This document shows, one piece after another, positions 33,054-62,704 of a stretch of 64,000 nt of DNA; within the stretch, counting starts at the first letter, position 1; every line of letters starts with the position of its first letter. The stretch is from assembly GCF_024723735.1 (NCBI RefSeq), contig NZ_JANQDU010000007.1, forward strand, positions 1-64,000, in the 5' to 3' direction. Source of the stretch: Frigidibacter sp. ROC022. Its GTDB lineage: Bacteria; Pseudomonadota; Alphaproteobacteria; Rhodobacterales; Rhodobacteraceae. A program made the translations under genes and the position numbers. The notes beneath the pieces were generated by a model that searched no databases, was not told the origin of the DNA, and was given only the letters and a program-made list of their open reading frames with translations.

Positions 33054-33668
33054 ATGAAGATTGGGATAGCAATTCCCCTGTTCATGACACTCGGCCTTGC
33101 ACCGCCCGCGCAGGCGCTGGACCTGGGCAATGCGCTCTCGGTTCTGTCGCTTGGCGATGGCTCCGTCGGTGCGCTGGCGGGTGAGGGGATTCCCCTGGAC
33201 GGGCTGGCCAGCCTCAGCTTCGCGGGCAAGGCCGTCGTCTCCTCGCCGGACACCGCACCTCTGGTCGACGCGACGCTGCTGGGCGCGCCCGAGGAAGACG
33301 GGCATCGGACCGTGGCGAACGTGAAGGTCGGCACCAGCGACCTGCTCGGCAGCGGCCTGCTGGACGGCGGCCTGCTGGGCGGCGACGGTGATCTGCTGGG
33401 CGGCGTGACCGAAACGGTCTCGGGCCTGACCGGTGGCGTCCTGGACGGCGACGGCGGCCTGCTGGGCGGTGACGGTGATCTGCTTGGCGGCGTGACCGAA
33501 ACGGTCTCGGACCTGACAAGCGGCGTCCTGGGCGGCGATGGCGGCCCGCTGGGCGGCGTGGGCGAAACGGTTTCCGGTCTGACCGGCGGCACACTGGGCG
33601 GCGATGGCGGCCTGGTTGGCGGCGTGACAGACGCGGTTGGAAGTCTCACCGGCGGCCTTCTTAACTGA
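33054..33668 (+). CDS. Secreted Gly/Asp/Leu repeat protein
   Basis: A 204-residue exported protein of unrecognised family. Residues 1-21 are a signal peptide ending near AQA, so the mature chain begins LDLGNALSVLSLG. From about residue 95 it consists of imperfect repeats built on GDGDLLGGVTETVSGLTGGVL, repeated at about 19-33 residue spacing, each with GGDG and TETVS-like words. Repeats rich in G-D-G and L could form a beta-roll or bind calcium, but the strict RTX nonapeptide is absent. A GATAGGAG ribosome site supports the start. Its mature N-terminus resembles those of the exported proteins at 35.1 and 35.8 kb. Confidence 0.75.
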   Translation: MKIGIAIPLFMTLGLAPPAQALDLGNALSVLSLGDGSVGALAGEGIPLDGLASLSFAGKAVVSSPDTAPLVDATLLGAPEEDGHRTVANVKVGTSDLLGSGLLDGGLLGGDGDLLGGVTETVSGLTGGVLDGDGGLLGGDGDLLGGVTETVSDLTSGVLGGDGGPLGGVGETVSGLTGGTLGGDGGLVGGVTDAVGSLTGGLLN

Positions 33669-33772: not shown

Positions 33773-35059
33773 TCAGGATTCGACGAAACGTCCGGGCCGC
33801 GCTCCGCCACCCCGGCGCAACGGCACCAGCATCCGGGCCACGGGCCCGTGGCGGCGCATGTAGCGCTTGTAGAGCCGGTATTCGCGGGCGCCGCTGCAAT
33901 TCGCTTCCTCGGTGCGGGCGCGCAGGAAGTAGATCGTGTTGATCCCGATCAGCGCCAGCGTGTTGCCCAGTGCATCCAGAGGCGACACCGCCAGGAAGGG
34001 CAGCTGGATCAGCCACATGGTGAGGTTCTTCGACACATAGGCCGGGTGCCGGAGCAGCGCGTAGGGTCCGCGATGGACGGTGCCGCGATAGGTGACATTG
34101 GAAAAGCGAATCCCGAAGCTCACGGTGCTGAGGACATAGAGGCAGAGCAGCAGCAGGATCATGGACCCCCAGAGCTGATAGGCCAGCGGATGGGCCTTCA
34201 GCAGGCTGCCCCAGACGATGTCGTCGTCATAGGCCAGGTATTCGCGCCCGATGACCTGCCAGAACGGTGCATAGCAGATCAGGCAGACGAGCCAGCCCTT
34301 CACGCCCCGCTCGGCCCAACGCACATGCGCGCCCAGAAGCCGGGTCGCCACCGCATAGCCGATGATCGCAAAGCAGACATCGACGAAGAACAGGTAGCGA
34401 TAGGCGTATTCGTAGAAGGCGGTGAAGGACTGGAAGTCACCTGATGCCTCGCGAAAGAAGATCCAGTCGTCCAGACCGTAGCAATACATCAGCGGCAGGA
34501 AGAAGAACTTGACCGCAGAGGCGCGGAGGAAATCGCCGATCTTCTGCGGATCGCCGGTCGTGCCGAGACTGCAGACCCATGTGCCGAAGGCGTGCAGCTG
34601 ATCGTGCGGTTCGGTCAGCAGCCGGTCGGCCAGGACGACATATGCCGCCAGGCCCAGGGCGATCGGCACCGCGTTGTCGAAGACCTGCAGGGTGAAGCGC
34701 TGATACCAGGGGCTGAGGTAGAGCGGCACGGTTGCATAGAGCGTTGCAGCGCCCAGCAGCAGCGCACCCAGGCCGACCAGCTTGACTGCAATCCGCGTCC
34801 AGACCGCCCCGTCGGGGCGGGTCGGTGCCAGAGTCACCCCGGCCTCGGGTTGCCGCCAGGTCTGAAACAGGACGAGGTCGCTGATTGCCATGACGGCGAA
34901 GACGGACAGCAGGAACAGGTTGTAGTGCAGCTCGGCCGAGCCGCCGATGCCTGCCGGCCAGTACACAAAGCCGGCGAACAGCGTCGCCAGCCCGAGAAGC
35001 CCGGTCAGCAGCGGCGGTGAGTTGCGGAAGTGACGGGCGCGGCTGTGGGGGCGGGCCAT
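33773..35059 (-). CDS. Multi-pass membrane protein with isoprenylcysteine methyltransferase-like C-terminus
   Basis: A 428-residue inner-membrane protein with about nine hydrophobic segments. The C-terminal part, GPYALLRHPAYVSKNLTMWL, then a helix, then RARTEEANCSGAREYRLYKRYM, is the signature of the ICMT/PEMT-like membrane methyltransferase fold, where R-H-P-x-Y and the E-E pair contact S-adenosylmethionine. The N-terminal 250 residues contain no domain I recognise. The substrate could be a lipid, an exported small molecule or a protein. It lies among secreted low-complexity proteins, on the same strand as the two that follow. Confidence 0.75.
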   Translation of the reverse strand: MARPHSRARHFRNSPPLLTGLLGLATLFAGFVYWPAGIGGSAELHYNLFLLSVFAVMAISDLVLFQTWRQPEAGVTLAPTRPDGAVWTRIAVKLVGLGALLLGAATLYATVPLYLSPWYQRFTLQVFDNAVPIALGLAAYVVLADRLLTEPHDQLHAFGTWVCSLGTTGDPQKIGDFLRASAVKFFFLPLMYCYGLDDWIFFREASGDFQSFTAFYEYAYRYLFFVDVCFAIIGYAVATRLLGAHVRWAERGVKGWLVCLICYAPFWQVIGREYLAYDDDIVWGSLLKAHPLAYQLWGSMILLLLCLYVLSTVSFGIRFSNVTYRGTVHRGPYALLRHPAYVSKNLTMWLIQLPFLAVSPLDALGNTLALIGINTIYFLRARTEEANCSGAREYRLYKRYMRRHGPVARMLVPLRRGGGARPGRFVES

Positions 35060-35118: not shown

Positions 35119-35730
35119 TCAGAACTGGTTCCGGGCCAGTGTCTCCTGGATCTGGGCGATGGTGGCGGAAGTCTGGACCAGGCCGGTCCCGATCCGGCCG
35201 CGGGCTCCGACAACCACGCAGTGGCGTGCCCGGTCCCAGACCGATCCGGTCTGAATCCAGACGGTGACCAGTTCCAGCCTGTTGTCGATCATTGCGCCCT
35301 CGACAGGGCCGATCGGTCGTCCCTCGCGGTCCAGCGCAAGGTAGCCGTTGAACGCGCTCGAATTTCCCCGTCCCGGGGCGCAGCGCGGGGGCGTGGTGGG
35401 AGAGGCTACCGGCATGGCCCTGGCAGAGGGCTCAATGACCACGAGTTCGGGCAGCTGGATGCCGGACGGGGCCTCGTCCTGCGCAGACGCCGGGATCGTG
35501 ACCGGTCCCGTCGGGCCGGGTTCCTCGGCGCTGTCGCGGGGCTGCTGCCGTGTTCGAATTTGATGCTTGTCCCACTGCGTCGAAAGGGCATCGCCGCCAT
35601 TACCGATGCCCAGCACGCTGTTAACTGTGGCGAGGTCCAGGCTTTGTACCGGACCGGTCCCGGCAAGGAGCATCGCGGCACCGATCAGCGTCCCAAGGGG
35701 CGCGCCGCGCTTGATCCGGGGTAATTGCAT
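35119..35730 (-). CDS. Exported protein with C-terminal domain shared with neighbour
   Basis: A 203-residue exported protein. Signal peptide residues 1-30 (GTLIGAAMLLAGTGPVQS), then mature LDLATVNSVLGIGNGG, a proline-rich linker, and a C-terminal domain NGYLALDREGRPIGPVEGAM, then LVTVWIQ, then CVVVGARGRIGTGLVQTSATIAQIQETLARNQF. By eye this aligns with the C-terminal domain of the 35.8-kb protein (NGVPVLDLNGVRLGTIVGAY, CVEYTTKSGKATKDGIVVSA). The G-x-x-LD-x-x-G-x-x-x-G-x-V pattern resembles a PRC barrel. Function unknown. ATG at 35,730 chosen as the only start giving a signal peptide. Confidence 0.72.
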   Translation of the reverse strand: MQLPRIKRGAPLGTLIGAAMLLAGTGPVQSLDLATVNSVLGIGNGGDALSTQWDKHQIRTRQQPRDSAEEPGPTGPVTIPASAQDEAPSGIQLPELVVIEPSARAMPVASPTTPPRCAPGRGNSSAFNGYLALDREGRPIGPVEGAMIDNRLELVTVWIQTGSVWDRARHCVVVGARGRIGTGLVQTSATIAQIQETLARNQF

Positions 35731-35819
35731 TTGCGCCTCCGTCAGTTTGGTTCCGCCACCGTGGTCGATCGGAAAAAGCCCCGGCCGCAGGGCAGATCGC
35801 GGCCGGGGTAGTGCGGTGG

Positions 35820-36767
35820 TTAGCGCGAAAGCGCGGCGACCAGCGAATCGCGGGTGGCGCTGACCACGATTCCGTCCTTGGTCGCCTTGCCCGACTTGGT
35901 CGTGTACTCGACACAACCACCGCGAGGCGCGATCACCGGGTCCACTGCCAGGCGAACCTTGACCAGGTCGCTGCCCTCGACATAGGCGCCGACGATGGTC
36001 CCGAGCCGCACGCCGTTCAGGTCGAGAACCGGAACGCCGTTCAGGACGGTGTAGTTGCCGGCGGCCGGGCAATGACCCGATCCGGCATATTTGCGCGGCG
36101 CGGGCGTGGGGGTTCCCGGAACGCCCGAGGTGCCGGAAGCACCGGACGAGCCCGAGCTGCCCGACGAACCGGACGACCCGGAGCTACCCGAGGAGCCCGA
36201 ACTGCCCGAGGAACCGGACGACCCAGAGCTGCCCGACGAACCGGAACTACCCGAAGAGCCCGAACTGCCCGAGGAACCGGACGACCCGGAGCTGCCCGAC
36301 GACCCGGAGCTACCCGAAGAGCCCGAGCTGCCGGAGGAACCCGAACTGCCCGAAGAACCGCCACCGACGCCGACACCGACGTCGATCCCGCCGCCGCCGA
36401 TGCTGACGCCCACGTCGATGCCGCCCGAAGAGCCGCCGCCGACACCAACGCCGACGTCAACGCCGCCATTGCCCGCGTCGACGCCCGCGTCGACAACCGA
36501 AGAGCCGCCGACGCTGACATCCGCGTCGACCACCGAGGAACCGCCGACGCCGACATTTGCATCGACACCGCCGACGCCCACACCGACGTCGAGCCCGCCG
36601 TCGGAACCGCCGCCGACCGAAACGCTGACGCCGCCGAGATCGAGGTCAAGCGCGAGACCCGCAGCCGGAACGGCCAGAATTGCGCCCAGTGCGAACGCCG
36701 AATTGCGCAGCATCCCCTTCAGCGAAGTCCCCAAATTGCTTTGGGTCTCCAGTTTCCTATTTGCCAT
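35820..36767 (-). CDS. Exported Ser-Ser-Gly repeat protein
   Basis: A 315-residue protein with an N-terminal export signal (LRNSAFALGAILAVPAAGLAL) and mature start DLDLGGVSVSVGGGSDGG. Residues about 50-130 are G-V-D-V-G-V-G-V repeats. These are followed by roughly two dozen consecutive Ser-Ser-Gly triplets, a short ASGTSGVPGTPTPAPRK linker and a C-terminal 75-residue domain homologous to that of the neighbouring 35.1-kb protein. Low-complexity S/G stalks with a globular end resemble surface or matrix proteins. The start ATG at 36,767 has AGGAAG upstream. The DNA repeat is prone to length change. Confidence 0.78.
   Translation of the reverse strand: MANRKLETQSNLGTSLKGMLRNSAFALGAILAVPAAGLALDLDLGGVSVSVGGGSDGGLDVGVGVGGVDANVGVGGSSVVDADVSVGGSSVVDAGVDAGNGGVDVGVGVGGGSSGGIDVGVSIGGGGIDVGVGVGGGSSGSSGSSGSSGSSGSSGSSGSSGSSGSSGSSGSSGSSGSSGSSGSSGSSGSSGSSGSSGSSGSSGSSGSSGASGTSGVPGTPTPAPRKYAGSGHCPAAGNYTVLNGVPVLDLNGVRLGTIVGAYVEGSDLVKVRLAVDPVIAPRGGCVEYTTKSGKATKDGIVVSATRDSLVAALSR
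36124..36360 (-). repeat. Nine-base-type tandem repeat encoding (SSG)n
   Basis: Tandem units of the form GAGCCCGAGCTGCCC/GAGGAACCGGACGACCCG (plus strand) encode the Ser-Ser-Gly run on the minus strand. Codons vary between copies while the protein triplet is kept, which points to selection on the peptide. Confidence 0.8.
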
Positions 36768-38408
36768 TTTCAATACTTCCTTCCATTCAACGAAGCGTTC
36801 CCAGACCTCCCATTGATCCGGTCGGTCGATGTGCGGCCGACGAGAATGTCGCCGGCCGCTCCTGCACGTCCCCGTCGCCCGGGGGGTGGCGAAGGGTCCG
36901 AAAATGCCGGCCCGGCTTCTGGCCCGTGCAAATGTCGGGCTGTCTTCCGGGGTCCGCACAGCCCATGACGGGCGGCCGGGTCCAGCAATCCGTGCAGATA
37001 TCGATTCAACCGAAACCACTTGGGTGCTACATGGCGTATCTCACTGGATACACACATAAACTACCGTGACCGGTGCCGTTGCAGGAAGCCTTGAAACCGC
37101 CGATCCATTCAACCAGAGCGCGTCATAGCACCAAAGGACCATGCCGGTCATACCATGCTCGGAGGGCCGTTCGAATTCCTGCGGGCACGGGCCGATGCCG
37201 GTTCCGGTACGAGACCGTCCAGCTGTCGTCCGCGGCCCTCGGCGCGCCGGGCCAGGCACGAATCATTCCCCTGTTTCCTTTCCTTTGAAACCTGGTTTCT
37301 TGGCCGCCCTGCAGGCCCTGGCGATCAGAAAGCCATTCCACAAAATTCGTCTCGATGCCCGGACGTTTTCACGCACGCGCTACAAACGGACATTCGGACA
37401 CGATGGGCCGTATTTCCATCCATCGTTAGCTGGATGGAAATAGTCCGCGGGGTGTGTAGGCCTAAAGATCGACCAAAGTAGGCTATTCGGAAACCCCGGG
37501 AACGGTGAGATTCGGGCAGGGGTGGCGCAACGGGTCGCTCGACCATGCCGCGCAATGCTGCGGTCAAGGGAAATGGGGCCGTGGAAAGCAACGGTGGAAG
37601 TCATTGAATTCGAATTGCGGAATATAACGGCTATTCGGGGGCGAAGACGGCTGTATTCAGCATACCCCTGGCGCCCGGCATCGGTCGGGCGCAATCCGAT
37701 ACCGTTTCGGAAATTCTTCGGGACGGGGGCGGAAATCGGCCGGCCGGTTCTTTTCTGGAATCAACGCAGCGGGAGCGGTCGAAATCGCCACATATATCAG
37801 GAAGTCACGGCGGCAATCGCCGGCACGACTCCTGGTGCCGGGCTTCGGTGCCATCCGTCGGCCCGGGTCCCGGGATCGACGCGACGCAGTTCGTTGGACG
37901 ATGCCGGAGTTCTGGCGAGGTTAAACTCCCGGTTGCGGTTGAGCCCCGATTGGGTCGGGTTCGTCGGGAGCCTTGCGGGAAAGCACCGGGCCGGGGCCCG
38001 GTTTGGCGGCGGCGGTCTGCGCGAGTCATCCGAACGGCAGGCAGCGGCCGACATGAGTCTGCACTATACATATGGAGAGAGTGCGGGGGCGGAATGCCAG
38101 GGGCAGCGCAATCCCCATGAATAAAGGGATTCCCGCCCTGACGGGGCAGGAGGCAACGCCTGTGTCCGCATCTGTCAGACTTGGTCGGAATTGTGGCCGG
38201 TTTGTGGCGAAGGCGGGTATTCCCCGCAGTTTTCGGTGCAATCCTGCCCGGCTGCCGGTCATCGTTTCCGCGCTGCGCCCGGGAATGCATGCGACCTTTG
38301 GACTAGAGGCGCCAATTCTCCTGTTCGGACGATTACCCGCAGCGGTTGCGCGTGCGACCTTGCCTGCAAGTGCTGAAGAGCGGCACCAGGAAGGACGGTA
38401 TCGGTACA
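36768..38408. other. 1.6-kb stretch without a supported gene
   Basis: Open frames exist on both strands (for example 37,522-38,124) but have no recognisable domain, biased codon pattern or ribosome site. The base composition is more even than in neighbouring genes. It contains the dyad at 37,411-37,442 and the presumed promoters of the SSG-protein gene (left) and the regulator operon (right). It could hide small RNAs. Confidence 0.5.
37411..37442. promoter_or_regulatory. Perfect 12-bp inverted repeat
   Basis: TATTTCCATCCA (37,411-37,422) and TGGATGGAAATA (37,431-37,442) are exact reverse complements around an eight-base centre TCGTTAGC. No T-run follows on either strand, so it does not look like an intrinsic terminator. 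It could be an operator for a dimeric regulator or a structured RNA element. Confidence 0.6.
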
Positions 38409-38666
38409 ATGGATGATCGCATCACAACAATGGTTCCTGGCATGATATTGGTCGCGACCGTCGCCGGGTTCGTCTCGGCGGTCGTCATGGCCGTGATGGG
38501 CGCGCCGATCTCAATGATGATCAAGGGCTACTATATCGCGGCCTGCATTGCGGCGCTTCTATTCTGGGTGCGCCCGCGTGTCATGGAATTGCTTGGCCGT
38601 CTGCGCATCCTTCTGAAAAGCGGGCACCGGGAAGAACCGGTCTCGAACGATCGGCTGGTCAGCTGA
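38409..38666 (+). CDS. Small membrane protein, unknown
   Basis: An 85-residue protein with two predicted membrane helices: ITTMVPGMILVATVAGFVSAVV followed by YIAACIAALLFWVRP, and a basic cytoplasmic tail (RVMELLGRLRILLKSGHR). The start ATG at 38,409 is chosen because the hydrophobic segment follows closely; the frame extends upstream to 38,346. It is 87 bases before the pseudo-receiver gene on the same strand. No family recognised. Confidence 0.6.
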   Translation: MDDRITTMVPGMILVATVAGFVSAVVMAVMGAPISMMIKGYYIAACIAALLFWVRPRVMELLGRLRILLKSGHREEPVSNDRLVS

Positions 38667-38753
38667 GGACAATCTGGGTGTGGGGCACCCGAGCCGGCAT
38701 TGAATGGAATTCGATGCCAACAGGAATAAACCAGTAATCGCCGGAGAAACAAA

Positions 38754-39365
38754 ATGGCTTATCAGGACCGTCCCCTTGCCGGACCACGCATCTCCTACCC
38801 GCGCCCGCTGTCCCTGCTGTCGGCCCTGGGTGCCTGGGCGCTCGGCTTTCTGGGTCGGGAGGAGCGCGATGTGCGCGACGTGCCGCGTGTTCGGGCCGAC
38901 GAGGATGCCGGGTTCGAACTGCTGCGCCGCGGGGCGCTGAGCGACCGGAAGATCCTGGTTGTCGGCAGGGCCGGTGGCGAGCTGATGCCGCTGGTGCTGG
39001 GCATGACCGAATACGCGATCGACGTCCGGCACTTCGACAGCTTCGAGGCGGCCGCGCATCTGGTCTGGGAGCGGACCCAAAGCGAATATGTGATCGTCGT
39101 GGACATCGACACCTTCTCGTCCACCTCGGCCGCCGTGGAAGCCCTGCGGTTGTTCCGGCAGGCCCACCCCGGCACCGTCGTGGTCATTGCGTCGGCCTTT
39201 TTTGCCCGCCATGATTTCTCGGGCGAACGGCGCGCGATCGCGGATGCATCGGTGCGGCTGCCCTGCGGACGTGTCGGCATTTCTCTGGCAATTGCCTGCG
39301 GGATCGAGAATAACGAGGGTGCACCGGCCGATACGGCCCAGTGCCTTCGTGAAGGAACGCGTTGA
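38754..39365 (+). CDS. Receiver-like (pseudo-receiver) domain protein
   Basis: A 203-residue protein with a CheY-like alpha/beta domain in the second half. It runs from DRKILVVGRAGGELM (first strand, with the usual acidic pair missing), through YVIVVDIDTFSS (predicted phospho-acceptor strand), to GTVVVIASAFF (T/S strand), and ends VRLPCG where a true receiver has L-x-K-P. Loss of the lysine and acidic pair suggests a phosphorylation-independent pseudo-receiver. The N-terminal 55 residues contain a short hydrophobic stretch (LSLLSALGAWALGFLG). It overlaps the next gene by four bases, and the set ends in a LuxR-type regulator, so a signalling role is likely. Confidence 0.6.
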   Translation: MAYQDRPLAGPRISYPRPLSLLSALGAWALGFLGREERDVRDVPRVRADEDAGFELLRRGALSDRKILVVGRAGGELMPLVLGMTEYAIDVRHFDSFEAAAHLVWERTQSEYVIVVDIDTFSSTSAAVEALRLFRQAHPGTVVVIASAFFARHDFSGERRAIADASVRLPCGRVGISLAIACGIENNEGAPADTAQCLREGTR

Positions 39366-39811
39366 AAGGCCTTGCCCCGCACGCTATGACGGTACACAAC
39401 CAGAAGTATAAGGGCGGTTTCCGCCTGGGTTTTGTGGTGCTTGTTCTTAGCTCCGTATTCTGTGTGACGGCGGCCACTGCCGATAGCGGGACATTCATCA
39501 AGACGAGTGACGAGGACTTTCTGCAGATTGTTCGGGAAAAGGGTATCCGCACGAATTTTGCCGAGATCGTCGATGCCCTGGACCGAGAAGGCTACGAAGT
39601 CGTCAAGGTTGAGCAGACCCTTTTGAACCGTGTCCTGATCAGGGCGCGAAATTCATATCACCTGCGCGAGATCGTTGTCAGTCGCGCGTCGGGCCAGATT
39701 TTGAGGGACAGGATCATAGAGACGTTCGAACAGCCACAGAAACCAGCGTCGTCGTCGCTCGATCATATTCTGAAGACGACGCCGGGTGGCATTCGCCTTC
39801 GGGACGAGTGA
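39362..39811 (+). CDS. Exported PepSY-like small protein
   Basis: A 149-residue protein with an N-terminal signal or anchor (LGFVVLVLSSVFCVTAATADS) and a PepSY-like periplasmic module: NFAEIVDALDREGYEVVKVEQTLLNRVLIRARN, then REIVVSRASGQILRDRI. Two starts are possible: TTG at 39,362, overlapping the upstream stop (TTGA) with GAAGGA at good spacing, or ATG at 39,386, which has no visible ribosome site. Overlap with both neighbours indicates a co-translated unit. PepSY domains often inhibit or modulate partner proteins; a role in sensing for the downstream membrane regulator is an inference. Confidence 0.65.
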   Translation: MKGLAPHAMTVHNQKYKGGFRLGFVVLVLSSVFCVTAATADSGTFIKTSDEDFLQIVREKGIRTNFAEIVDALDREGYEVVKVEQTLLNRVLIRARNSYHLREIVVSRASGQILRDRIIETFEQPQKPASSSLDHILKTTPGGIRLRDE

Positions 39812-40404
39812 TGCACCAACCGCGGATCTCTGAGCCGCATGCACAGAACCACAAACATGAGCCCGGGCAGGGCCAGGTTCCCAATCGTGCGATGATCTGG
39901 TCGGGTCTGCGCTGGCCCGCCCTGATCGCGATCATTCTCGTCCTGCTCATTCAGGTGGCGAGCGCCGCATTCTTCACCATCAAGCTGCTGGGCGAGGTGT
40001 TCCTCTGGGACCTGGCGATGATCCCATGGGAGTTGCAGGAGCGGCTCGAGCTTCTGTCCAGCCTCGGCCTGCTCTGCGGCCTGGTCAGCAGCGTGGCCCT
40101 GCTGCTCATCTCGACCCGCCGGATGTCGCGAATCAACGATCAGCTCCATGCGGCGGCGGGGCAGTTCCAGTTCTACATCGACCGCCAGTTCGCCGAGTGG
40201 CAACTGACCCCGACCGAGCGTCATGTGGCGATCCTGGTCATCAAGGGATTCAGCAATTCCGAGATCGCAGGGCTCAGGGGAACCACCGAGTCGACGGTGA
40301 AGTCGCAACTGACCTCGATCTTCCGAAAGGCCAACCTGAGCAGCCGTCAGCAGCTGGTGGCCTGCGTGATCGAGGACCTGGTGGCCGCCGTCCCCGAGAC
40401 CTGA
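39811..40404 (+). CDS. Membrane-anchored LuxR-type transcriptional regulator
   Basis: A 197-residue protein with two N-terminal membrane helices (LRWPALIAIILVLLIQVASAAFF and LELLSSLGLLCGLVSSVALLLIS), a short coiled region, and a C-terminal LuxR/FixJ helix-turn-helix: WQLTPTERHVAILVIKGFSNSEIAGLRGTTESTVKSQLTSIFRKANLSSRQQLV. There is no receiver or autoinducer domain, so it would bind DNA from the membrane, like ToxR-style one-component regulators. Start ATG overlaps the preceding stop (TGATG). Likely targets are the exported-protein genes nearby and the 37.4-kb dyad, which is speculative. Confidence 0.82.
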   Translation: MHQPRISEPHAQNHKHEPGQGQVPNRAMIWSGLRWPALIAIILVLLIQVASAAFFTIKLLGEVFLWDLAMIPWELQERLELLSSLGLLCGLVSSVALLLISTRRMSRINDQLHAAAGQFQFYIDRQFAEWQLTPTERHVAILVIKGFSNSEIAGLRGTTESTVKSQLTSIFRKANLSSRQQLVACVIEDLVAAVPET

Positions 40405-40541
40405 TCCCGGGGAACTGGCCGAACCCGTTTGGCGCGGCATTTTGCCAACCTTTCAGGGGGGCTTCCGAAGTCATCATGCGTTGCCCCCGGTTCCCCGCTG
40501 TGGCAATGAAAGACTCGGACCGCCTTACACTGGACCAGAAC

Positions 40542-41195
40542 ATGCCCAGCTTTTCCGAACTCCGCACGATCATGGTGGACACCCAGGTTCGCACGGCGGA
40601 CGTGACCAAGTTCCCCATCATCGACGCCATGCTCGACGTACCGCGCGAGGCCTTCGTGCCCAGCAACAAGCGCGATGTCGCCTATGTAGGCACCAACCTG
40701 CCCCTGTCGGCGGATCGCGTGGTGCTGGACCCGCGTACCCTGGCCAAGATGCTGGACGCGCTGGACATTCGGCCGGACGAACTGGTGCTGGATGTGGGGT
40801 GCGGGCTTGGCTACTCCTCCGCCGTCATCGGGCGCATGGCCGAGGCTGTCGTGGCGCTCGAGGAAGACGAAGGCATGGCCGCCGAGGCCGAGGCGGCGCT
40901 GACCTCGGTCGGGGCCGACAATGTCGCGGTGGTGACCGGCCCGCTGGCGGCCGGCGCGGCCAAGCATGGTCCCTACGATGTCATCACGATCCAAGGCGGT
41001 GTCGAAGCGCTGCCCGACGCGCTCGTCGCACAGCTGAAGGAAGGCGGCCGGATCGGCTGCATCTTCATGCGGGGCGGGCTGGGCACGGTCCGCATCGGTC
41101 ACAAGTCCGGCGACACCCTGGACTGGCGCTACGCCTTCAACGCAGCCGCGCCGGTTCTGCCCGGTTTCGCCCTGATCCCGAGTTTTGCATTATGA
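40542..41195 (+). CDS. Protein-L-isoaspartate O-methyltransferase family protein
   Basis: SAM-dependent methyltransferase of the PCMT family, 217 residues. It contains MVDTQVRTADVTKFPIIDAMLDVPREAFVP, typical of the alphaproteobacterial PCMT subgroup, motif I LVLDVGCGLGYSSAVIG and VVALEEDEGMA (motif II). The subgroup lacks some canonical PCMT residues, and repair of isoaspartate is not certain. ATG 40,542 chosen by family alignment; ATG 40,506 is in frame and possible. Its stop overlaps the tolC start, a pairing seen widely in Rhodobacteraceae. Confidence 0.87.
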   Translation: MPSFSELRTIMVDTQVRTADVTKFPIIDAMLDVPREAFVPSNKRDVAYVGTNLPLSADRVVLDPRTLAKMLDALDIRPDELVLDVGCGLGYSSAVIGRMAEAVVALEEDEGMAAEAEAALTSVGADNVAVVTGPLAAGAAKHGPYDVITIQGGVEALPDALVAQLKEGGRIGCIFMRGGLGTVRIGHKSGDTLDWRYAFNAAAPVLPGFALIPSFAL

Positions 41196-55151: not shown

Positions 55152-55316
55152 TCATTCCCAACCCCGTCGAATATCGGTGCGGTGACATTCGGGGCAGTGC
55201 ACTGGGGAGGTCGGCCTGTCCAATCGCCGGGCTTCGCGCTGCTCCTCTGCGTCCAGTACCTCGTTCTCGAAGCGGTGGCCGCAATTCTTACAACGAAAAC
55301 GAACGGTCTCAGTCAT
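55152..55316 (-). CDS. 54-residue zinc-ribbon protein
   Basis: A very short gene, easily missed. It translates as MTETVRFRCKNCGHRF at the N-terminus, then a charged helix EVLDAEEQREARRLDR, then HCPECHRTDIRRGWE and stop. The two CxxC/CxxC-H knuckles (C9, C12 and C42, C45 by my count) form a classic zinc ribbon. The ATG at 55,316 overlaps the last eight bases of the TIR gene, so the two are translationally coupled. It could be a nucleic-acid or protein-binding accessory of the TIR protein. Similar small ribbon proteins also occur alone, so the link rests on context. Confidence 0.75.
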   Translation of the reverse strand: MTETVRFRCKNCGHRFENEVLDAEEQREARRLDRPTSPVHCPECHRTDIRRGWE

Positions 55317-56256
55317 AAGTCACCCCCGCCTGGTCTAGAAATTCCGCCCAGAGGGACTCGGCAGCGGACTCCGGGCTCAAGCGCTGGCGCTCCTGACCGA
55401 AGCCCATCAGCGTTCCACCGCTGAGGAACTGCTCGTACTCATCGGCCTCGACTGAGAATCCACCTTGGGCAGTGTTTTCACCTGCATTTTCGGAGAACGA
55501 GTAATAGATGTCGCCGAAGCCACCGTAACCGTTGGCACAGTGAACAGTGATGTGTGCGGTCCCCCGATCCCTGACACGGTTTACAATCGTGCATCCAAAA
55601 GTCGTCGGGGAACGGGACGCGAAGCGCCCGCGTAAGTCCTCGATGGAGTCAATCTCGGCGGTCGCGCGCTGAAAATAATCTCGGATGGTCGCGAAAGCGG
55701 ACTCACGATACTCGCTACGGTCTATTTGATCAAAATCGCGCTTTACACGATAGCGCCGTTCGCTGGTTGCGGCAGTCGGCTGCGACGCGACGGTAGCATT
55801 GATTTCTTCTGCCGGCTCGGCATCCCGAGTTTGCACGATCCGCCGCAGCGCTTTCACGATGTCTAGGTAGGCGTTGTTGGCATTTGTCCACTCGCTAACA
55901 GGCTTGCCATCATGCGGCAGTGCCTTGAGCCTCCTCAAAGGCGAAGAAGTCCAGTCGCAGGGCTCGATGATAATCGGTACCACTCTGGCTTCGTTGGCCT
56001 CGTGCCGCTCCAAAGCCCGTTGCATTTCACGTTCGACGCAGTAGTCGGAAGCGAGAAAGTCCGGACTTACGAGAAGCAGGAACAGCTCGCAGGTCTCCAA
56101 CTCGGCGGCAATCTCGGCGTCAATCTCGCTGCCGCCAAGAATCTCGCGGTCGAACCAAGCTTCGAGCAGGCCATCACGGCGCAACGTTGCCAAATGCGTG
56201 TGAAGTCTCTCTAAGGCCGCGCCGTCCTTGTGCGAGTAGGAAATAAAGGCCCTCAT
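55309..56256 (-). CDS. TIR domain protein
   Basis: Predicted TIR-domain effector, 315 residues. Residues 1-140 form a TIR_2 fold: MRAFISYSHKDGAALERL (box 1), WFDREILGGSEIDAEI, LFLLLVSPDFLASDYCVEREM (C73, with E77 at the usual catalytic glutamate place), and RVVPIIIEPCDW. Bacterial TIR domains hydrolyse NAD or make signalling nucleotides. After a linker, residues about 170-315 form a second domain I do not recognise (ANGYGGFGDIYYSFSENAGEN, WAEFLDQAGVTYD). The start is uncertain: ATG 56,256, ATG 56,265, or TTG 56,280 overlapping the DUF2188 stop. Middle gene of DUF2188-TIR-zinc ribbon. Confidence 0.85.
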   Translation of the reverse strand: MRAFISYSHKDGAALERLHTHLATLRRDGLLEAWFDREILGGSEIDAEIAAELETCELFLLLVSPDFLASDYCVEREMQRALERHEANEARVVPIIIEPCDWTSSPLRRLKALPHDGKPVSEWTNANNAYLDIVKALRRIVQTRDAEPAEEINATVASQPTAATSERRYRVKRDFDQIDRSEYRESAFATIRDYFQRATAEIDSIEDLRGRFASRSPTTFGCTIVNRVRDRGTAHITVHCANGYGGFGDIYYSFSENAGENTAQGGFSVEADEYEQFLSGGTLMGFGQERQRLSPESAAESLWAEFLDQAGVTYD

Positions 56257-56619: not shown

Positions 56620-59600
56620 ATGAAAGTGCGCGGCAAAGAACTCATCCTGAGCGCGTCCGACCTCGTCGGCCATTTGAATTGCGCCCATATGACCGAGCTT
56701 GATCTCGGAGTGGCGAGTGGCGCACTAAAGAAGCCATCGGTCTGGGACCCCCTTCTAGAAATTCTGCGCGAACGCGGGCGTCGCCATGAAAAGAGCTTCA
56801 TCGACCACCTTGAGGCCGAGGGTTTAGCAACGCGCGTCATTGACGGCGTAGACATCACCGCGGACGCGTTCGCCGAAACGAAAGCAGCGATGGCCGATGG
56901 TGTAGAGGTTATTGTGCAGGCAGCACTTCAGCACGGTCGTTGGGCTGGACGTGCTGACATATTGAGGCGTGTCGAAACTCCGAGCGGTCTCGGCGAGTGG
57001 TCCTATGAGATCATCGACACCAAGCTCGCTCGTGAAACCAAAGCGGGGTCGGTCCTACAGCTCTGTCTGTATGCAGACCTGCTTGAGAAAGCGCAGGGTC
57101 TGGCTCCGAAGCATATCTACGTCGTCGCTCCCTGGTCGAATTTCGAGCCGCAAGAGTTCCGGTATGCGGACTATGCAGCCTACTTCAGGAAGGCGAAAAC
57201 CGCGATCGAAGAGGCGACCACAATCGATGCGCCTCCAGCCCTTTATCCCGAGCCAAAGGAACACTGCGATATGTGCCGCTGGCGTGAACGGTGTGATGCA
57301 CGCAGGCGTGAAGACGACCATCTGTGTCTTGTCGCAGGGATCAGCAAGAACCAGCGAACGGAACTACAGGAGAACGGCATTTCAACCGCGGCGGCGCTTG
57401 CCGCCATGCCTGTGCCTATGCCGTGGAAGCCGCAGCGCGGTGCCCCGCTTTCCTATCATAAGGCGCGCGAGCAAGCCCGCATACAAATCGAGTCGCGTGC
57501 TGCGGGCAAAACGCTCTATGAGCTGCTCCCTGCCGTGCAGGATATCGGTCTATGCCTTTTGCCAGAGCCATCGGAGGGTGACATCTTTTTCGACATCGAG
57601 AGTGATGTTCTTGTAGGCGAGCACGGCCTCGAATATCTCTTCGGTTACAGCTACCGGGACGAGAATGGGGCGTGGGCCTACACCGCCGACTGGGCGTTTG
57701 ACCGCGAACGTGAAAAAGAGATTTTCGAGTGCTTTGTGGATTTCGTGACGGAGCGTCAGAAGACATACCCTGACCTGCATATCTACCATTACGCAGCTTA
57801 CGAGCCGGGAGCCCTGAAGCGGTTGATGGGCCGCTACGCCACCCGCGAATCCGAGATTGATGATTTCCTGCGCGGCGACTTGCTTGTCGATCTCTACGCC
57901 GTGGTCCGCAACGCGCTACGCGCAGGCGTAGAAAGCTACTCGATTAAGAAGCTTGAGCCTCTGTACGGCTTCGAGCGAAACACCGACCTCCCGGATGCCA
58001 ATATGGCACTTGCCAGCCTGCAAGCAGGGCTAGAGCTCGGCGATATCGAAAACGTCAGCACCGAGGACTGCGCGACGGTGCAGTCCTACAATGAAGATGA
58101 CTGCAACTCTACAATGGCGCTGCGAGACTGGCTCGAAGAGCGGCGGCAAGAGATCATAGATTCAGGGACAGATGTCTCGCGACCGGCTCCATCGGATCAA
58201 CAAGCCAGCGACGAACTGACCGAGCGGCAGGAGGCCATTCAGGCGCTAGTTGAGAGTCTTACACGCGACATTCCCGCCGACATTGAGGAGCGGAGCGTCG
58301 AACAGCAGGCGCGATGGATTCTGGCCTACTTGCTCGACTGGCATCGCCGCGAGCAAAAGGCAACCTGGTGGGAGTATTTCCGGCTTGCCGACCTCACCGC
58401 CGAAGAATTGATTGACGAGCGCGTCGCACTTTCCGGTCTGACTTACATGGCAACAGTTGACCAGACCAAAACGGGTATTCCGATCGATCGCTACCGTTTT
58501 CTGCAGCAAGACACCGACCTGCGCGGCGAGGAAGGCCTGCGGCGAGTGGGCGGCGATTCCATTGGAACGGCCGTCATGATTGATAGCGAGGCGCGTACGA
58601 TCGACATCAAGAAGACCAAACAAACCGCAAATGTTCACCCGGCAGGCGTCTTTGCTTTTCAGAACTTCGACCACAAAGAACAAGCGGACGCCCTCTTCCG
58701 TATCGGAGAATTTGTTGCCGAACACGGCATCCTCGGCGATGGTCCCTTTCAGGCTGCTCGGTCTTTACTCCTGCGTGAGCCGCCACGCCTTGGCGGCCAA
58801 CCAATCCGGCTGACCGAAGAGCTTCCCCTCGATGCAGGCGTTCGTATCGCCGACTATCTCGGAGAGGGAATCTTGCCCATACAGGGACCACCCGGCACGG
58901 GCAAGACCCACACAGGCGCGCATATGATTTGCCGTCTGGTCGAGCGCGGCAAGAAAGTTGGGATCACAGCAAACTCGCACAAGGTCATCCGCAATCTGCT
59001 CAACAAGATCGTCACGGTTGCCGATGAAAAGGGCATCGCGCTCACTTGCATACAGAAACCCGGCGAACAGGAACCGGACCAGAAACGCCTGATCTTTGCC
59101 CGCAAGAACGAAGATGTCTTCACCGCGCTTTCTACCAATCGTGCACACGTCGCGGGTGGGACAAGCTTCCTTTGGTCGCGCAATGATGCCGCAGACACAC
59201 TCGACGTGCTGGTGGTCGATGAAGCTGCGCAGATGTCACTCGCCAATGTGATCGCCGTGTCACAAAGCGCCCGCACCGTGATTTTGCTCGGCGATCCGCA
59301 GCAGCTCGATCAACCGACACAGGGCTCCCATCCTGATGGCACGGGTGTTTCATCTCTTCAGCATGTTCTAGGCCAAGAGCACACGATTGCCGGCGATCGC
59401 GGTCTGTTCCTAGAACAGACGTGGCGTCTCCATCCCGATATTTGCGCTCTAAACTCCGAGCTATTCTACGATGGGAAGCTTGCGGCCAAGCTGGACTGTG
59501 CGCGGCAGAAAATCAATGCCAGCGGCCCGATCAGTGGCAGCGGTTTGCGCTACCTTCCAGTGCATCATACCGGCAATCGCAGCTCTTCGATCGAAGAAGC

Positions 59601-60027
59601 GGAGACTACCGCGAAGCTAGTGAACGATATCGTCGCAAGCCAGCCAACATGGATCGACCGCGACGGCGACGAGCATGCAGTCAGGCTTGAGGACATCCTC
59701 ATTATCACACCCTACAACGCGCAGGTCTTCGAGATTCAGCAGCGTCTGCCGGGCGCACGGGTCGGCACCGTAGACAAGTTCCAGGGCCAGGAAGCGCCGA
59801 TCGCTATCTACTCGATGGCGACATCAAGCTATGCTGACGCGCCCCGCGGTATGGAATTTCTCTACAGCGCCAATCGTTTCAACGTTGCGATTTCCCGCGC
59901 ACAATGCGTCGCCATTCTGATCGCTTCCCCGGACATCTTCGAGGCTGACTGCAAGACTCCTCGCCAGATGCAACTTGCAAACGGATTCTGTCGCTATCTT
60001 GAGCTTGCACAACCTGTTGCTCTTTAA
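56620..60027 (+). CDS. RecB-like nuclease / SF1 helicase (TM0106-type)
   Basis: A 1,135-residue fusion. Residues 1-230 are a TM0106-type PD-(D/E)xK nuclease: GRADIL, YEIIDTKLA, QLCLYADLL, and cysteines C21 and HCDMCRWRERC, which would hold a Cas4/AddB-like iron-sulphur cluster. Residues about 320-510 are RNase H-like with DIFFDIESDV and YNEDDCNSTMALRDWL, suggesting a 3'-5' exonuclease. The C-terminal third is an SF1B helicase (Dna2/Upf1-like): Walker A GPPGTGKTHTGAH near 757, Walker B VVDEAAQMS near 864, then EQTWRLHPDI, VDKFQGQEAPIAIYS and NRFNVAISRAQ. All catalytic motifs look intact. It would process DNA or RNA ends. A defence role is inferred from context. Confidence 0.9.
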   Translation: MKVRGKELILSASDLVGHLNCAHMTELDLGVASGALKKPSVWDPLLEILRERGRRHEKSFIDHLEAEGLATRVIDGVDITADAFAETKAAMADGVEVIVQAALQHGRWAGRADILRRVETPSGLGEWSYEIIDTKLARETKAGSVLQLCLYADLLEKAQGLAPKHIYVVAPWSNFEPQEFRYADYAAYFRKAKTAIEEATTIDAPPALYPEPKEHCDMCRWRERCDARRREDDHLCLVAGISKNQRTELQENGISTAAALAAMPVPMPWKPQRGAPLSYHKAREQARIQIESRAAGKTLYELLPAVQDIGLCLLPEPSEGDIFFDIESDVLVGEHGLEYLFGYSYRDENGAWAYTADWAFDREREKEIFECFVDFVTERQKTYPDLHIYHYAAYEPGALKRLMGRYATRESEIDDFLRGDLLVDLYAVVRNALRAGVESYSIKKLEPLYGFERNTDLPDANMALASLQAGLELGDIENVSTEDCATVQSYNEDDCNSTMALRDWLEERRQEIIDSGTDVSRPAPSDQQASDELTERQEAIQALVESLTRDIPADIEERSVEQQARWILAYLLDWHRREQKATWWEYFRLADLTAEELIDERVALSGLTYMATVDQTKTGIPIDRYRFLQQDTDLRGEEGLRRVGGDSIGTAVMIDSEARTIDIKKTKQTANVHPAGVFAFQNFDHKEQADALFRIGEFVAEHGILGDGPFQAARSLLLREPPRLGGQPIRLTEELPLDAGVRIADYLGEGILPIQGPPGTGKTHTGAHMICRLVERGKKVGITANSHKVIRNLLNKIVTVADEKGIALTCIQKPGEQEPDQKRLIFARKNEDVFTALSTNRAHVAGGTSFLWSRNDAADTLDVLVVDEAAQMSLANVIAVSQSARTVILLGDPQQLDQPTQGSHPDGTGVSSLQHVLGQEHTIAGDRGLFLEQTWRLHPDICALNSELFYDGKLAAKLDCARQKINASGPISGSGLRYLPVHHTGNRSSSIEEAETTAKLVNDIVASQPTWIDRDGDEHAVRLEDILIITPYNAQVFEIQQRLPGARVGTVDKFQGQEAPIAIYSMATSSYADAPRGMEFLYSANRFNVAISRAQCVAILIASPDIFEADCKTPRQMQLANGFCRYLELAQPVAL

Positions 60028-60074: not shown

Positions 60075-61010
60075 TTAGATGAGCTTCGCATTGCCACTAG
60101 AGTCGATCTGAACGATTGCTCCAACACGTCGGTAGACCGTAGCACCATCGGAAAATTTCGCGCGTACTACTTGCGCATGAGCGTCTGCCAACAATGTAAA
60201 GGTAGCGTTTTCTGCAGCCCCCGCCGCAGCAGGCCCAGCACCGATCATCAGCCCACCTCCATTCGTCAAAACGAAACGATCATGGAAGTCTTCGCCTCCG
60301 GCAATCTGCTCCCATTCATAGAGCTGCAATTTGAACCCAACAGGGATCATTCCCTTCGTCAAGCGCGGTGCGTCTCGTGCAAGCAGAATATCCGGAGGTC
60401 GACTATCGTGAGTTCGGAAATGGATCTTTATCGTCTTGCCTCCGAAGCCTGCGCCTGACAACTTGGCAAGTAGAGCTGCCAGCGGACCCATGAAATCACC
60501 TTTTGCCGGGCGTAAGTCAAAAAATGGATCAACGATATCGACCTCCGTTGCCGGGGCGACCAATCCGAACAATGCATCGGCGATATCGGCGGCAACACGA
60601 CCAACATCGCGGCTAATCTGAGCTTCGATCAGAGCGTTCTCTTCATCGCAATCATCCGATACTAAGGCCTCGGCGCACCCAGTGGGCTTGTCAGAACAAA
60701 TAATTGCGCGAAATGGACGCGCGGCATGTTCCCGCAAAGCATTTTCAATCCAAGGATTGTCTGGATCGTAGGCTCTGCCGAAATCAACGACGCGAATCTT
60801 CCTGGTCGCCTTTAGTCGCTCGACCATGCTGGCCAGCTTGATATCGGAAACACCGGCATCTGCGGCGGCGGCGAGGACTTCCTTCTCCCACTTCGGAGGA
60901 AGTCGCGAAATCAACCTGCCCTTATCAAAGCCGAACTTTTCGATGAGAAACCTGAAAGTGTTCCAATCTGCCCCAATTGCCGCAGGCTCAACAGCGTATT
61001 CCGAATGCAC
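60075..61010 (-). CDS. HDR-motif (MIT_C/phospholipase D-like) protein
   Basis: A 311-residue protein of no named family that I recognise. The C-terminal half contains EVDIVDPFFDLRP, then IKIHFRTHDSRPPD, then WEQIAGGEDFHDRFVLTNGGGLMIGAG. The H-D-R-x-x-x-T-N-G-G order resembles the MIT_C/PLD-like fold, where the histidine may be catalytic or structural. The first 100 residues are helical and charged. The GTG start overlaps the last base of the ATPase stop (TAGTG), with GAGGAG inside the ATPase gene, so expression is coupled. I infer it is an effector or partner of that ATPase. It is convergent with the helicase gene. Confidence 0.65.
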   Translation of the reverse strand: MHSEYAVEPAAIGADWNTFRFLIEKFGFDKGRLISRLPPKWEKEVLAAAADAGVSDIKLASMVERLKATRKIRVVDFGRAYDPDNPWIENALREHAARPFRAIICSDKPTGCAEALVSDDCDEENALIEAQISRDVGRVAADIADALFGLVAPATEVDIVDPFFDLRPAKGDFMGPLAALLAKLSGAGFGGKTIKIHFRTHDSRPPDILLARDAPRLTKGMIPVGFKLQLYEWEQIAGGEDFHDRFVLTNGGGLMIGAGPAAAGAAENATFTLLADAHAQVVRAKFSDGATVYRRVGAIVQIDSSGNAKLI

Positions 61011-62704
61011 TAGAACAGCTCCTCCGCACGTTCGTCAAAGAAGCCTTGTGGCCAGCGGTCGAGGAAATCGCCATCCTCTGAAACGCGCAGCGGCTTGAAC
61101 CGAACACCTTCGAGCCCGCTCTCCACATAGATGACCGACAGATCATCGGGCGTAATCCCATCAAATCCAGGCGGGACTTCGTTGTCCGTTTGCTCGCGAA
61201 TCCGGCGCAAAAGCCGAAGCATGATGTGCTCACTGTGGGTCTCCACGATGAGAGACTTGCCCGAGAACAATCGATCAGGATCGCTGCGAACAGCGCGGAT
61301 GAACAGATCCCCCATACCAACCTGAATCGCGGGATGGACGTGAAGCTCCGGTTGCTCAATAGAAAGAATTCCATCCGCTTTTCGCAAGCTGGCAACAACC
61401 ACCGGAACCATTTGCGAGATGCCGACGCCAACATCGCCAGGAGCGACCAGAATACCTTTTTCGAAATCACGAAGTGCGATTTCGGAACGTGTCTTCAAAC
61501 TGAAGTAGAGCTCCTGAAGCTCGCCTATGTCATCTTCTTGAAGACCACGCTCGAAAACCTGATCGAAGCGACTGGGCACCGGAATTTCGCGAAACTCTAC
61601 ACGCTCCAAGCGATACGTTGTGCGAAGGCGCGTTTCGTCTGAAAGCCATCGATTGACAGCCTCCATCAATTCGCCACTGCGGTCATTGTAGAGAAGGTCC
61701 CAAGCTGCGAGACCCTGAGCCCACCGCGCCTCATCCGGGGTGACCTGTGGGCGATAGTTCCGGCTCGGAATATCCCGCAATGGCCCGATGTATGTCGTTT
61801 CCGAGAGAAAATCTCGAACTATTCGGGCCGGCCCCAACACCAATTCGGATAGAAGCGCGCGCAACCCGTTCACACGCGGCGTGCGCTCCTCCAACTCTGC
61901 CTTCGACACGTCTGGATCGCGAATATCAAGCGCCAAGTCTTTGTCCAACGCCGGCAGGGCGCCGCGCAGCGTGGCAACGGCAATCCGAAGCTGATCATCC
62001 GGAGTCTTCGGCGTTGAGCGATCCGCCGCGGCCTCCCGAGCAAGCACCCAAATCTCATCTTCAAGTGGAGAGGAAGCCGCTAGCTCCTCTCCGCCTTCTT
62101 CAGCCAATTCGTCCGGGCGGACAGCCCGACGGAGCAAGCGATGGTCAAAGTTGAAATCAGTCAATTGCGCCCGTCCAGCCTGTGGGGGCGAGATAATTGA
62201 CGCCACGGGCTCGCCATCAAGCTCGACAGAGAGCCTCGCCACATAGGGCGCCTGTTCACGTTCACTCCAACGGACTTCAACCTCTAGAGCGCATCCCTGA
62301 ACGACCGCGTAGTCCTCGAACTCTGCGCTCTCACCAAGTAGATAGCGCAGTTGAAGCTCGGAGAATTCAGGATCACCCAGAGACAACCCATCGTTTAGCG
62401 GCAGAGCGTCAGTTCCCTGCTCCTCCTGCATGTCCATTTCCAGTTTGATCGTAACAGCACGATCGAGTTCATGGTTGTGAACAAGCGTCGCAAAGCCGCC
62501 GAGATCGATGAGACCGCCGGCTATCGTCCTATCGGGATCGACATTTCCGCGATCAAGAACTTCACGTAGGTAGTGCAGTGCCTGGAGGATTGTACTCTTG
62601 CCGGCGCTGTTCGGACCAAAAAGCAACGTGATAGGCCGAAGATCGATGACCTGACGGCCACTAATACCTTTGAAATTCGCAATCTCTATCCTGGTCAAAC
62701 GCAT
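61010..62704 (-). CDS. OLD-like AAA ATPase with DUF3696 tail
   Basis: ABC/SMC-type ATPase of 564 residues. Residues 1-40 hold the IEIANFKGI start and Walker A GPNSAGKS (30-37). Q-loop and insertion regions follow. The signature-like GVGISQMVPVVVASL and Walker B ILSIEQPELHVHP are in the C-terminal third, then LIVETHSEHIMLRLLRRIRE (H-loop). The end, DRWPQGFFDERAEELF, is the DUF3696 signature. Relatives drive defence systems such as OLD/Gabija- or PARIS-type modules, where the ATPase senses and a partner acts. No TOPRIM domain is present. Nine bases separate it from hsdS; it overlaps the HDR-motif gene. Confidence 0.88.
   Translation of the reverse strand: MRLTRIEIANFKGISGRQVIDLRPITLLFGPNSAGKSTILQALHYLREVLDRGNVDPDRTIAGGLIDLGGFATLVHNHELDRAVTIKLEMDMQEEQGTDALPLNDGLSLGDPEFSELQLRYLLGESAEFEDYAVVQGCALEVEVRWSEREQAPYVARLSVELDGEPVASIISPPQAGRAQLTDFNFDHRLLRRAVRPDELAEEGGEELAASSPLEDEIWVLAREAAADRSTPKTPDDQLRIAVATLRGALPALDKDLALDIRDPDVSKAELEERTPRVNGLRALLSELVLGPARIVRDFLSETTYIGPLRDIPSRNYRPQVTPDEARWAQGLAAWDLLYNDRSGELMEAVNRWLSDETRLRTTYRLERVEFREIPVPSRFDQVFERGLQEDDIGELQELYFSLKTRSEIALRDFEKGILVAPGDVGVGISQMVPVVVASLRKADGILSIEQPELHVHPAIQVGMGDLFIRAVRSDPDRLFSGKSLIVETHSEHIMLRLLRRIREQTDNEVPPGFDGITPDDLSVIYVESGLEGVRFKPLRVSEDGDFLDRWPQGFFDERAEELF

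Follow-up and report, generated by a model that had tools for sequence, protein, structure and literature searches.

The locus described here raises the question of how a DNA-binding protein held in the membrane might receive its signal. In the window, by which we mean the whole 64,000-nucleotide stretch of Frigidibacter sp. ROC022 DNA that was analyzed, three overlapping genes encode a receiver-like protein (A), an exported PepSY-like protein (B), and a membrane-bound regulator with a LuxR-type helix-turn-helix (HTH) domain (C), and two further genes nearby encode exported proteins with the same C-terminal domain (D1 and D2, together D). A preliminary description made from the sequence alone had likened the trio to a ToxR/ToxS-style one-component sensor built from different parts. 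We asked which of these genes belong together, what kind of protein each encodes, and which genes the regulator might control.

Gene organization of the locus

Coordinates are collected in Table 1; the gene starts, called by a simple codon-bias method, are approximate. The overlaps reported earlier for A, B, and C can both be read in the sequence. The stop codon of A (39363-39365) falls within a TTGA (39362-39365) that also offers a candidate TTG start for B at 39362, preceded by GAAGGA, with the ATG at 39386 as an alternative start. The stop codon of B (39809-39811) shares its last base with the start codon of C, the ATG at 39811, in a TGATG (39809-39813).

Table 1. Features of the locus, in order of position along the window
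Feature	Length (aa)	Position	Strand	Basis and remarks
ICMT-like membrane protein, multi-span	428	33773..35059	-	Pfam ICMT 7.3e-4, under cutoff
D2, exported, C-terminal domain same as D1		35119..35730	-	D profile; start codon approximate
D1, Gly-rich/collagen-like exported protein		35820..36713	-	Collagen match, D profile, tail alignment; start codon approximate
D1-A intervening region		36714..38753	.	Inferred from gene positions
Small two-helix membrane protein	85	38409..38666	+	Translation, TM prediction
A, pseudo-receiver	203	38754..39365	+	Translation, family alignment, AlphaFold model; receiver fold ~64-189
B, exported PepSY-like protein	149 from TTG 39362; 141 from ATG 39386	39362..39811	+	
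C, membrane LuxR-type regulator	197	39811..40404	+	TM helices 37-55 and 82-100; LuxR/GerE HTH 131-184

The small membrane protein that had been placed ahead of the trio does exist as an open reading frame, but it is not conserved: phmmer at 1e-4 recovered no relatives among the 80 named loci, the best 80 of at least 280. Because of this lack of conservation it is probably not a core part, and we dropped it as one. A promoter scan of 36700-40600 returned no sites (1.0 expected), terminator-like sites in that interval numbered 7 against 3.7 expected, and an Rfam scan of 36600-40600 gave no matches at the gathering score. Judging by gene positions, the region between D1 and A probably holds divergent promoters. 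Near the end of the window, inspection by eye also picked out a TIR-like protein (55309-56256, minus strand), a protein of 1,135 residues (56620-60027, plus strand), and an AAA-type ATPase (61010-62704, minus strand), possibly a defense island.

C is a predicted membrane regulator with a LuxR-type HTH

The DNA-binding part of C matches GerE (PF00196) at 1.8e-9 and 37.5 bits, above the Pfam cutoff of 23.5, which places it among LuxR/FixJ-type HTH proteins, and GerE was present in 38 of 39 C proteins at 1e-3. Two transmembrane (TM) helices were predicted in 37 of the 39 and three in the remaining 2; in C itself, only about 26 residues separate the two helices. These results bear out the earlier reading of C as a two-helix membrane LuxR HTH protein. 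Neither the autoinducer-binding domain of quorum-sensing LuxR proteins (at E <=1) nor a winged-HTH family was among the Pfam matches of C, which consisted of GerE and weaker sigma-type or other matches, and its N-terminal part is made up of the two TM helices. All 39 C proteins match the NCBIfam profile of the LIC13292 family (NF047608), C over positions 84-162 of 166; at 56 bits against a cutoff of 200, C falls outside that family as defined. No paper naming LIC13292 was found in the literature searched.

B belongs to an exported, PepSY-like family

B carries a hydrophobic segment at residues 14-32, and 37 of 41 relatives have a similar segment within their first 50 residues. By itself, B has no PepSY match in Pfam at E <=1 and lies below the PepSY_2 cutoff; six of the 41 relatives match PepSY_2 (PF13670) at 0.01, the best at 5e-4. 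Exported PepSY-like protein is still a suitable label for B, with PepSY_2 homology a possibility at the level of the family. The model of B consists of a single small confident domain, a helix with four strands, for which PDB fold matches were weak, with none at E <=0.001. Nine matches of the B profile to PDB sequences at E <=1 were all unconvincing and were discarded.

The family is marked by a motif, T78-x-L80-N81-R82 ... R94-E95 ... G103 ... R107-D108 (numbering of the 141-residue form). In an alignment of 81 B domains found ahead of C, T78, L80, R82, R94, E95, G103, and D108 are near-universal, R94 being present in 81 of 81. The B profile also catches PepSY_2 proteins that sit beside a cytochrome b561 gene in the equivalent place before C. 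These pass the PepSY_2 cutoff at 43-56 bits and, in the sequences seen, are without the T-x-L-G/N-R motif carried by the B proteins encoded directly ahead of C. A further arrangement was seen at L033, L034, L037, L041, and L042, loci with an adjoining trpB-like gene: a tandem pair of PepSY-like genes precedes C, and the distal copy is without the LGR motif of the C-adjacent copy.

A is a predicted pseudo-receiver

A by itself has no Pfam match, and Response_reg is matched by 2 of 29 family members (best 4.3e-6). Its AlphaFold model has a mean pLDDT of 81.9, with values of at least 90 in each block across 61-190, and this predicted structure superimposes on receiver domains with a Z score of 13.1 and an rmsd of 2.6 over 116 residues. 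PDB sequences matched by the A family profile are mostly receivers (17 at E <=0.1, best 3.9e-4). The first 13 Foldseek entries for A, SIS-domain proteins with TM scores of at most 0.41 and rmsd above 11, were rejected; a second look was led by receivers. The family alignment comprises 28 relatives and A, leaving out L080 (a 530-residue protein) and a second weak match at L078; the weakest matches of the A search, open frames of about 480-530 residues, may be unrelated.

As the preliminary description had stated, A lacks the lysine and the acidic pair of receivers. Counting positions after strand 1, G71-R72 stands where the acidic pair would be, and L169 stands where the lysine would be. Across the family, an acid occurs at position 71 in 0 of 29 members and at position 72 in 2 of 29, and the lysine is found in 4 of 29. 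The phosphoacceptor equivalent, D117, is retained in A; across the 29 members this position holds D in 18 and N in 7. Several other positions hardly vary: R135 and D164 in 29 of 29, R159 in 28, P170 in 27, and S147 and D119 in 26 each. A has the receiver fold, then, and not the conserved acidic pair/Asp/Lys set. The degenerate phosphorylation positions, together with near-invariant residues of the family's own, argue that A, as judged from alignment and model, is a member of a pseudo-receiver family. Atypical receivers such as HP1043 and the CpaE type have the receiver fold in common with the A model (Z 11.4-11.6); A differs from them in being a stand-alone family that conserves a set of residues of its own.

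Alternatively, A might be a working receiver whose kinase is encoded elsewhere, with B and C a separate branch of a two-component pathway. Consistent with that idea are the retained D117, the lysine in a few relatives, and the LuxR-type HTH genes found in the fetched flanks at 6 of 28 A-relative loci, including the A-B-C locus L052. The near-absence of acids at 71 and 72, the replacement of D117 by N in seven members, and the missing lysine of A itself weigh against it, and we regard it as very improbable.

Most A relatives sit away from B-C: in the set L052-L079, only 3 of 28 loci (L052, L053, and L063) are known to have a C of this kind near A (~3 kb). Elsewhere in the Frigidibacter genome, A has only weak matches (4e-6 and 1e-3). 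Hydropathy points to one or two N-terminal TM helices in six A relatives (L060, L061, L066, L072, L077, and L079). At L056, L057, L060, and L065, from several genera, A-family pseudo-receivers have a ribosomal protein S1-like gene in their vicinity and lack a C-like gene in the flanks fetched, and L124 and L128 each hold two A-family genes within one A-B-C-D locus.

B and C form a widespread pair

C-like proteins (E <=1e-10) were found in at least 235 of 394 family genomes, one genome per genus, or about three in five sampled genera, and a PepSY-like gene lies nearly always just ahead. This count, like that of D below, is a lower bound, since part of the first-look candidates was scored per genome. 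In a first set, B lay upstream of C on the same strand within 1.5 kb at 47 of 52 loci; five weak HTH-only matches (L021-L025) had been removed beforehand, and the misses were L008 (at a contig edge), L012, L018, L019, and L030. A second set of 83 loci comprised the best 80 of at least 280 together with the window, L109, and L213; three were untestable for B, and B lay upstream of C within 0.9 kb at 79 of the remaining 80. The 4.4-Mb genome itself encodes C and two paralogues, and its four B-like matches (E <=0.01) are all beside these three C genes (loci L031 and L032), so the pairing of B with C is more than chance. Going by these neighborhoods, B-C is the core, a module that is frequent in the family and mostly found without A. 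The claim that the three genes are conserved together, which a co-occurrence search addressed, is supported, with the correction that A goes with one group of C proteins (see below).

The constancy of this pair also bears on a second alternative, in which C acts alone and B is an export or folding accessory for D or other envelope proteins, so that adjacency would only coordinate expression. PepSY-like domains are mostly known from roles other than transcription control, in propeptides and as inhibitor-like domains, and loci with two PepSY-like genes ahead of C exist, as such an accessory role might allow. However, B accompanies C without D at most of the 79 loci, of which the D group accounts for only 17, and R94 is invariant. 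We consider this alternative quite improbable.

Beyond the family, in a class sample of 240 genomes, C-like proteins occurred in 14, 11 of them outside the family. At the 11 class-sample loci besides those of the genome itself (L215-L225), a B-profile match precedes C in L215, L216, L217, L221, L222, and L225; a b561-like gene was identified by eye in L215, L216, L217, L221, L224, and L225; and L218, L219, L220, and L223 have neither. In some of these distant relatives the cytochrome b561 gene sits between the PepSY gene and C, a row also present in L043, L045, and L048. Where proteins were tried in Pfam, cytochrome b561 was matched in 3 of 3 and PepSY_2 in 6 of 6. The PepSY - b561-like - membrane LuxR rows (L215, L216, L217, L221, and L225; L043, L045, and L048) span several alphaproteobacterial families and are possibly the ancestral form of the module. 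They hint at a redox or envelope origin for B-C and, likewise, at a redox or envelope signal. At L220, CxxCH cytochrome-like genes adjoin C, with no PepSY match.

A and D accompany one group of C proteins

In an unrooted, quick IQ-TREE analysis of 85 C proteins, the 19 loci with D occupy one side of a branch with an SH-aLRT of 96. The genera represented include Frigidibacter, Roseinatronobacter, Natronohydrobacter, Solirhodobacter, Nioella, Alkalilacustris, Roseicyclus, Maritimibacter, and Anianabacter. Within the second set of 83 loci (the best 80 of at least 280, and three), this group has D at 19 of 19, A at 16 of 18 testable loci, and the ICMT-like gene at 7 of 19; A is absent from L109 and L213, and L125, with a 54-base upstream flank, could not be tested for A. 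No A, D, or ICMT-like gene occurs at the remaining 64 loci, of which 53 have full flanks. Thus the D genes (35119-36713), which lie outside 38409-40404, are the most constant extra partner of C in the group.

Gene order within the group varies (A-B-C at nine loci, B-C-A at four, and A on the opposite strand beyond D at three), and the linkage of A and D has therefore outlasted rearrangement. The linkage of D counts as one evolutionary event, an independent-pairs test of A versus D had too few pairs, and since the C tree is unrooted, gain of A and D within the group and loss elsewhere both fit. L213 (G274), where D adjoins a C-like gene with no A or B within 17 kb, falls on a long branch whose placement is unsure. 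L118 is a near-copy of L119, and L124 and L125 come from one strain; L119, L132, and L142 are taken as G221, G170, and G245, with the named copies alone counted in the tree and locus tables.

D1 matches Collagen at 4.4e-13, and D2 has no Pfam match. The tail alignment shows two invariant cysteines in the C-terminal domain of D. Eight of 19 D tails match the PRC barrel (PF05239) at E <=1 (best 3.3e-5), D1 at 0.053 and 14 bits against a cutoff of 21.2. In its own genome the domain occurs in two copies, D1 and D2, at this locus only. D was found in at least 11 of the 394 family-sample genomes, in six of them beside a C-like gene (G000, G109, G170, G221, G245, and G274). Of the remaining five, four (G165, G299, G383, and G397) have it beside a gene judged by its sequence to be isocitrate-dehydrogenase-like, as is also the case for a third G221 copy. 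D relatives whose fetched flanks contain neither A nor B nor C are L204-L208 and L212, and at L204-L207 and L212 a D-like Gly-rich exported protein adjoins the isocitrate-dehydrogenase-like gene. In the window, another exported Gly-rich repeat protein (33054-33668, plus strand), which is without the D tail domain, lies beside the ICMT-like gene.

Two positions change together with the group. Residue 58 of C, at the outer end of TM1, is D in 42, E in 9, and N in 7 of 66 other proteins and becomes K in 13 and R in 3 of the 19 in the D group, and residue 81 of B, G in 61 and R in 3 of 64 others, becomes N in 14 of 17. This co-variation in aligned sequences gives a hint of B-C contact, and only a hint, because the changes lie on a single branch.

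These distributions also allow a third alternative, namely that B-C, as a redox or envelope switch, serves a dispersed regulon, and that A and D are co-travelling neighbors, neither partners nor targets. The company that distant C relatives keep with PepSY_2 and cytochrome b561 fits this account, as does the absence of A and D from 64 of the 83 C loci. A search of upstream regions from 16 loci for a palindromic operator in common was also negative, finding none beyond 20 dinucleotide shuffles. Yet A and D stay linked to C across three gene orders, and in the Frigidibacter genome the D domain is found here alone and A has only its weak matches elsewhere. We therefore regard the account of co-travelling neighbors as unlikely.

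Proposed mechanism

We give about an even chance to the reading that B-C is a ToxR/ToxS-like membrane one-component switch, with A as a phosphorylation-independent modulator and D as the main target. Gene order, domains, the predicted fold of A, its degenerate phosphorylation site, and the linkage of A, B, C, and D are the observations that support it. On this proposal, B and C would bind each other as the two halves of the switch. C would pass the membrane twice, with its LuxR-type HTH on the cytoplasmic side; its very short outer loop would leave the sensing to B, the exported PepSY protein. A, with a receiver fold but without the normal phosphorylation residues, might be a cytoplasmic adaptor or anti-activator that targets C. 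The neighboring D genes would be the main output of C, activated or repressed, as position, topology, and linkage suggest, and the locus would therefore control a surface or matrix component. A fuller version is possible, though we lean against it: a phosphorylation-free three-part system, derived from a PepSY-b561-regulator module, in which a periplasmic PepSY sensor, a two-helix LuxR factor, and a phosphorylation-dead receiver that gates it would together switch the collagen-like D.

If the proposal is true, a widely distributed path from membrane to genes has gone unnoticed, sensing on behalf of a transcription factor can be added to the roles of PepSY domains, and a receiver fold works free of phosphorylation in a membrane system. 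A regulator would also be in place for an exported, collagen-like protein family, with possible consequences for attachment and life on surfaces.

Comparison with known systems

The preliminary description did not recognize the trio as a described system, and we likewise found no account of a B-C or A-B-C-D system in the literature searched, which mostly excluded subscription journals. A paper on iron limitation in Pseudomonas contains both "PepSY" and "LuxR" (PMC3377617). Comparable in build to C are DadR, CadR, and HcdR of Eggerthella lenta, LuxR regulators that, according to the part of the source consulted, have 10-12 TM helices and activate neighboring genes (PMC9734109). Like C, they join N-terminal TM helices to a C-terminal LuxR HTH. 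They differ in their 10-12 helices, against two in C, and the text seen of that source mentions no PepSY or pseudo-receiver partner.

In ToxR-like regulators the winged HTH is of the OmpR type, and a periplasmic domain accompanies a single TM helix. ToxR/ToxS, TcpP, and CadC are membrane-integrated one-component regulators (see also PMC7496328, PMC5430869). C has neither the OmpR/PhoB-type winged HTH nor the single TM helix with a periplasmic domain, and it differs from all three systems in its LuxR-type HTH, two TM helices, very short outer loop, and PepSY-like partner. In common with ToxR/ToxS, however, it has a membrane-tied DNA-binding domain, and ToxR/ToxS has a separate helper protein encoded next to it; the predicted anatomy of the locus thus agrees with the original suggestion of a ToxR/ToxS-style one-component sensor made of different parts.
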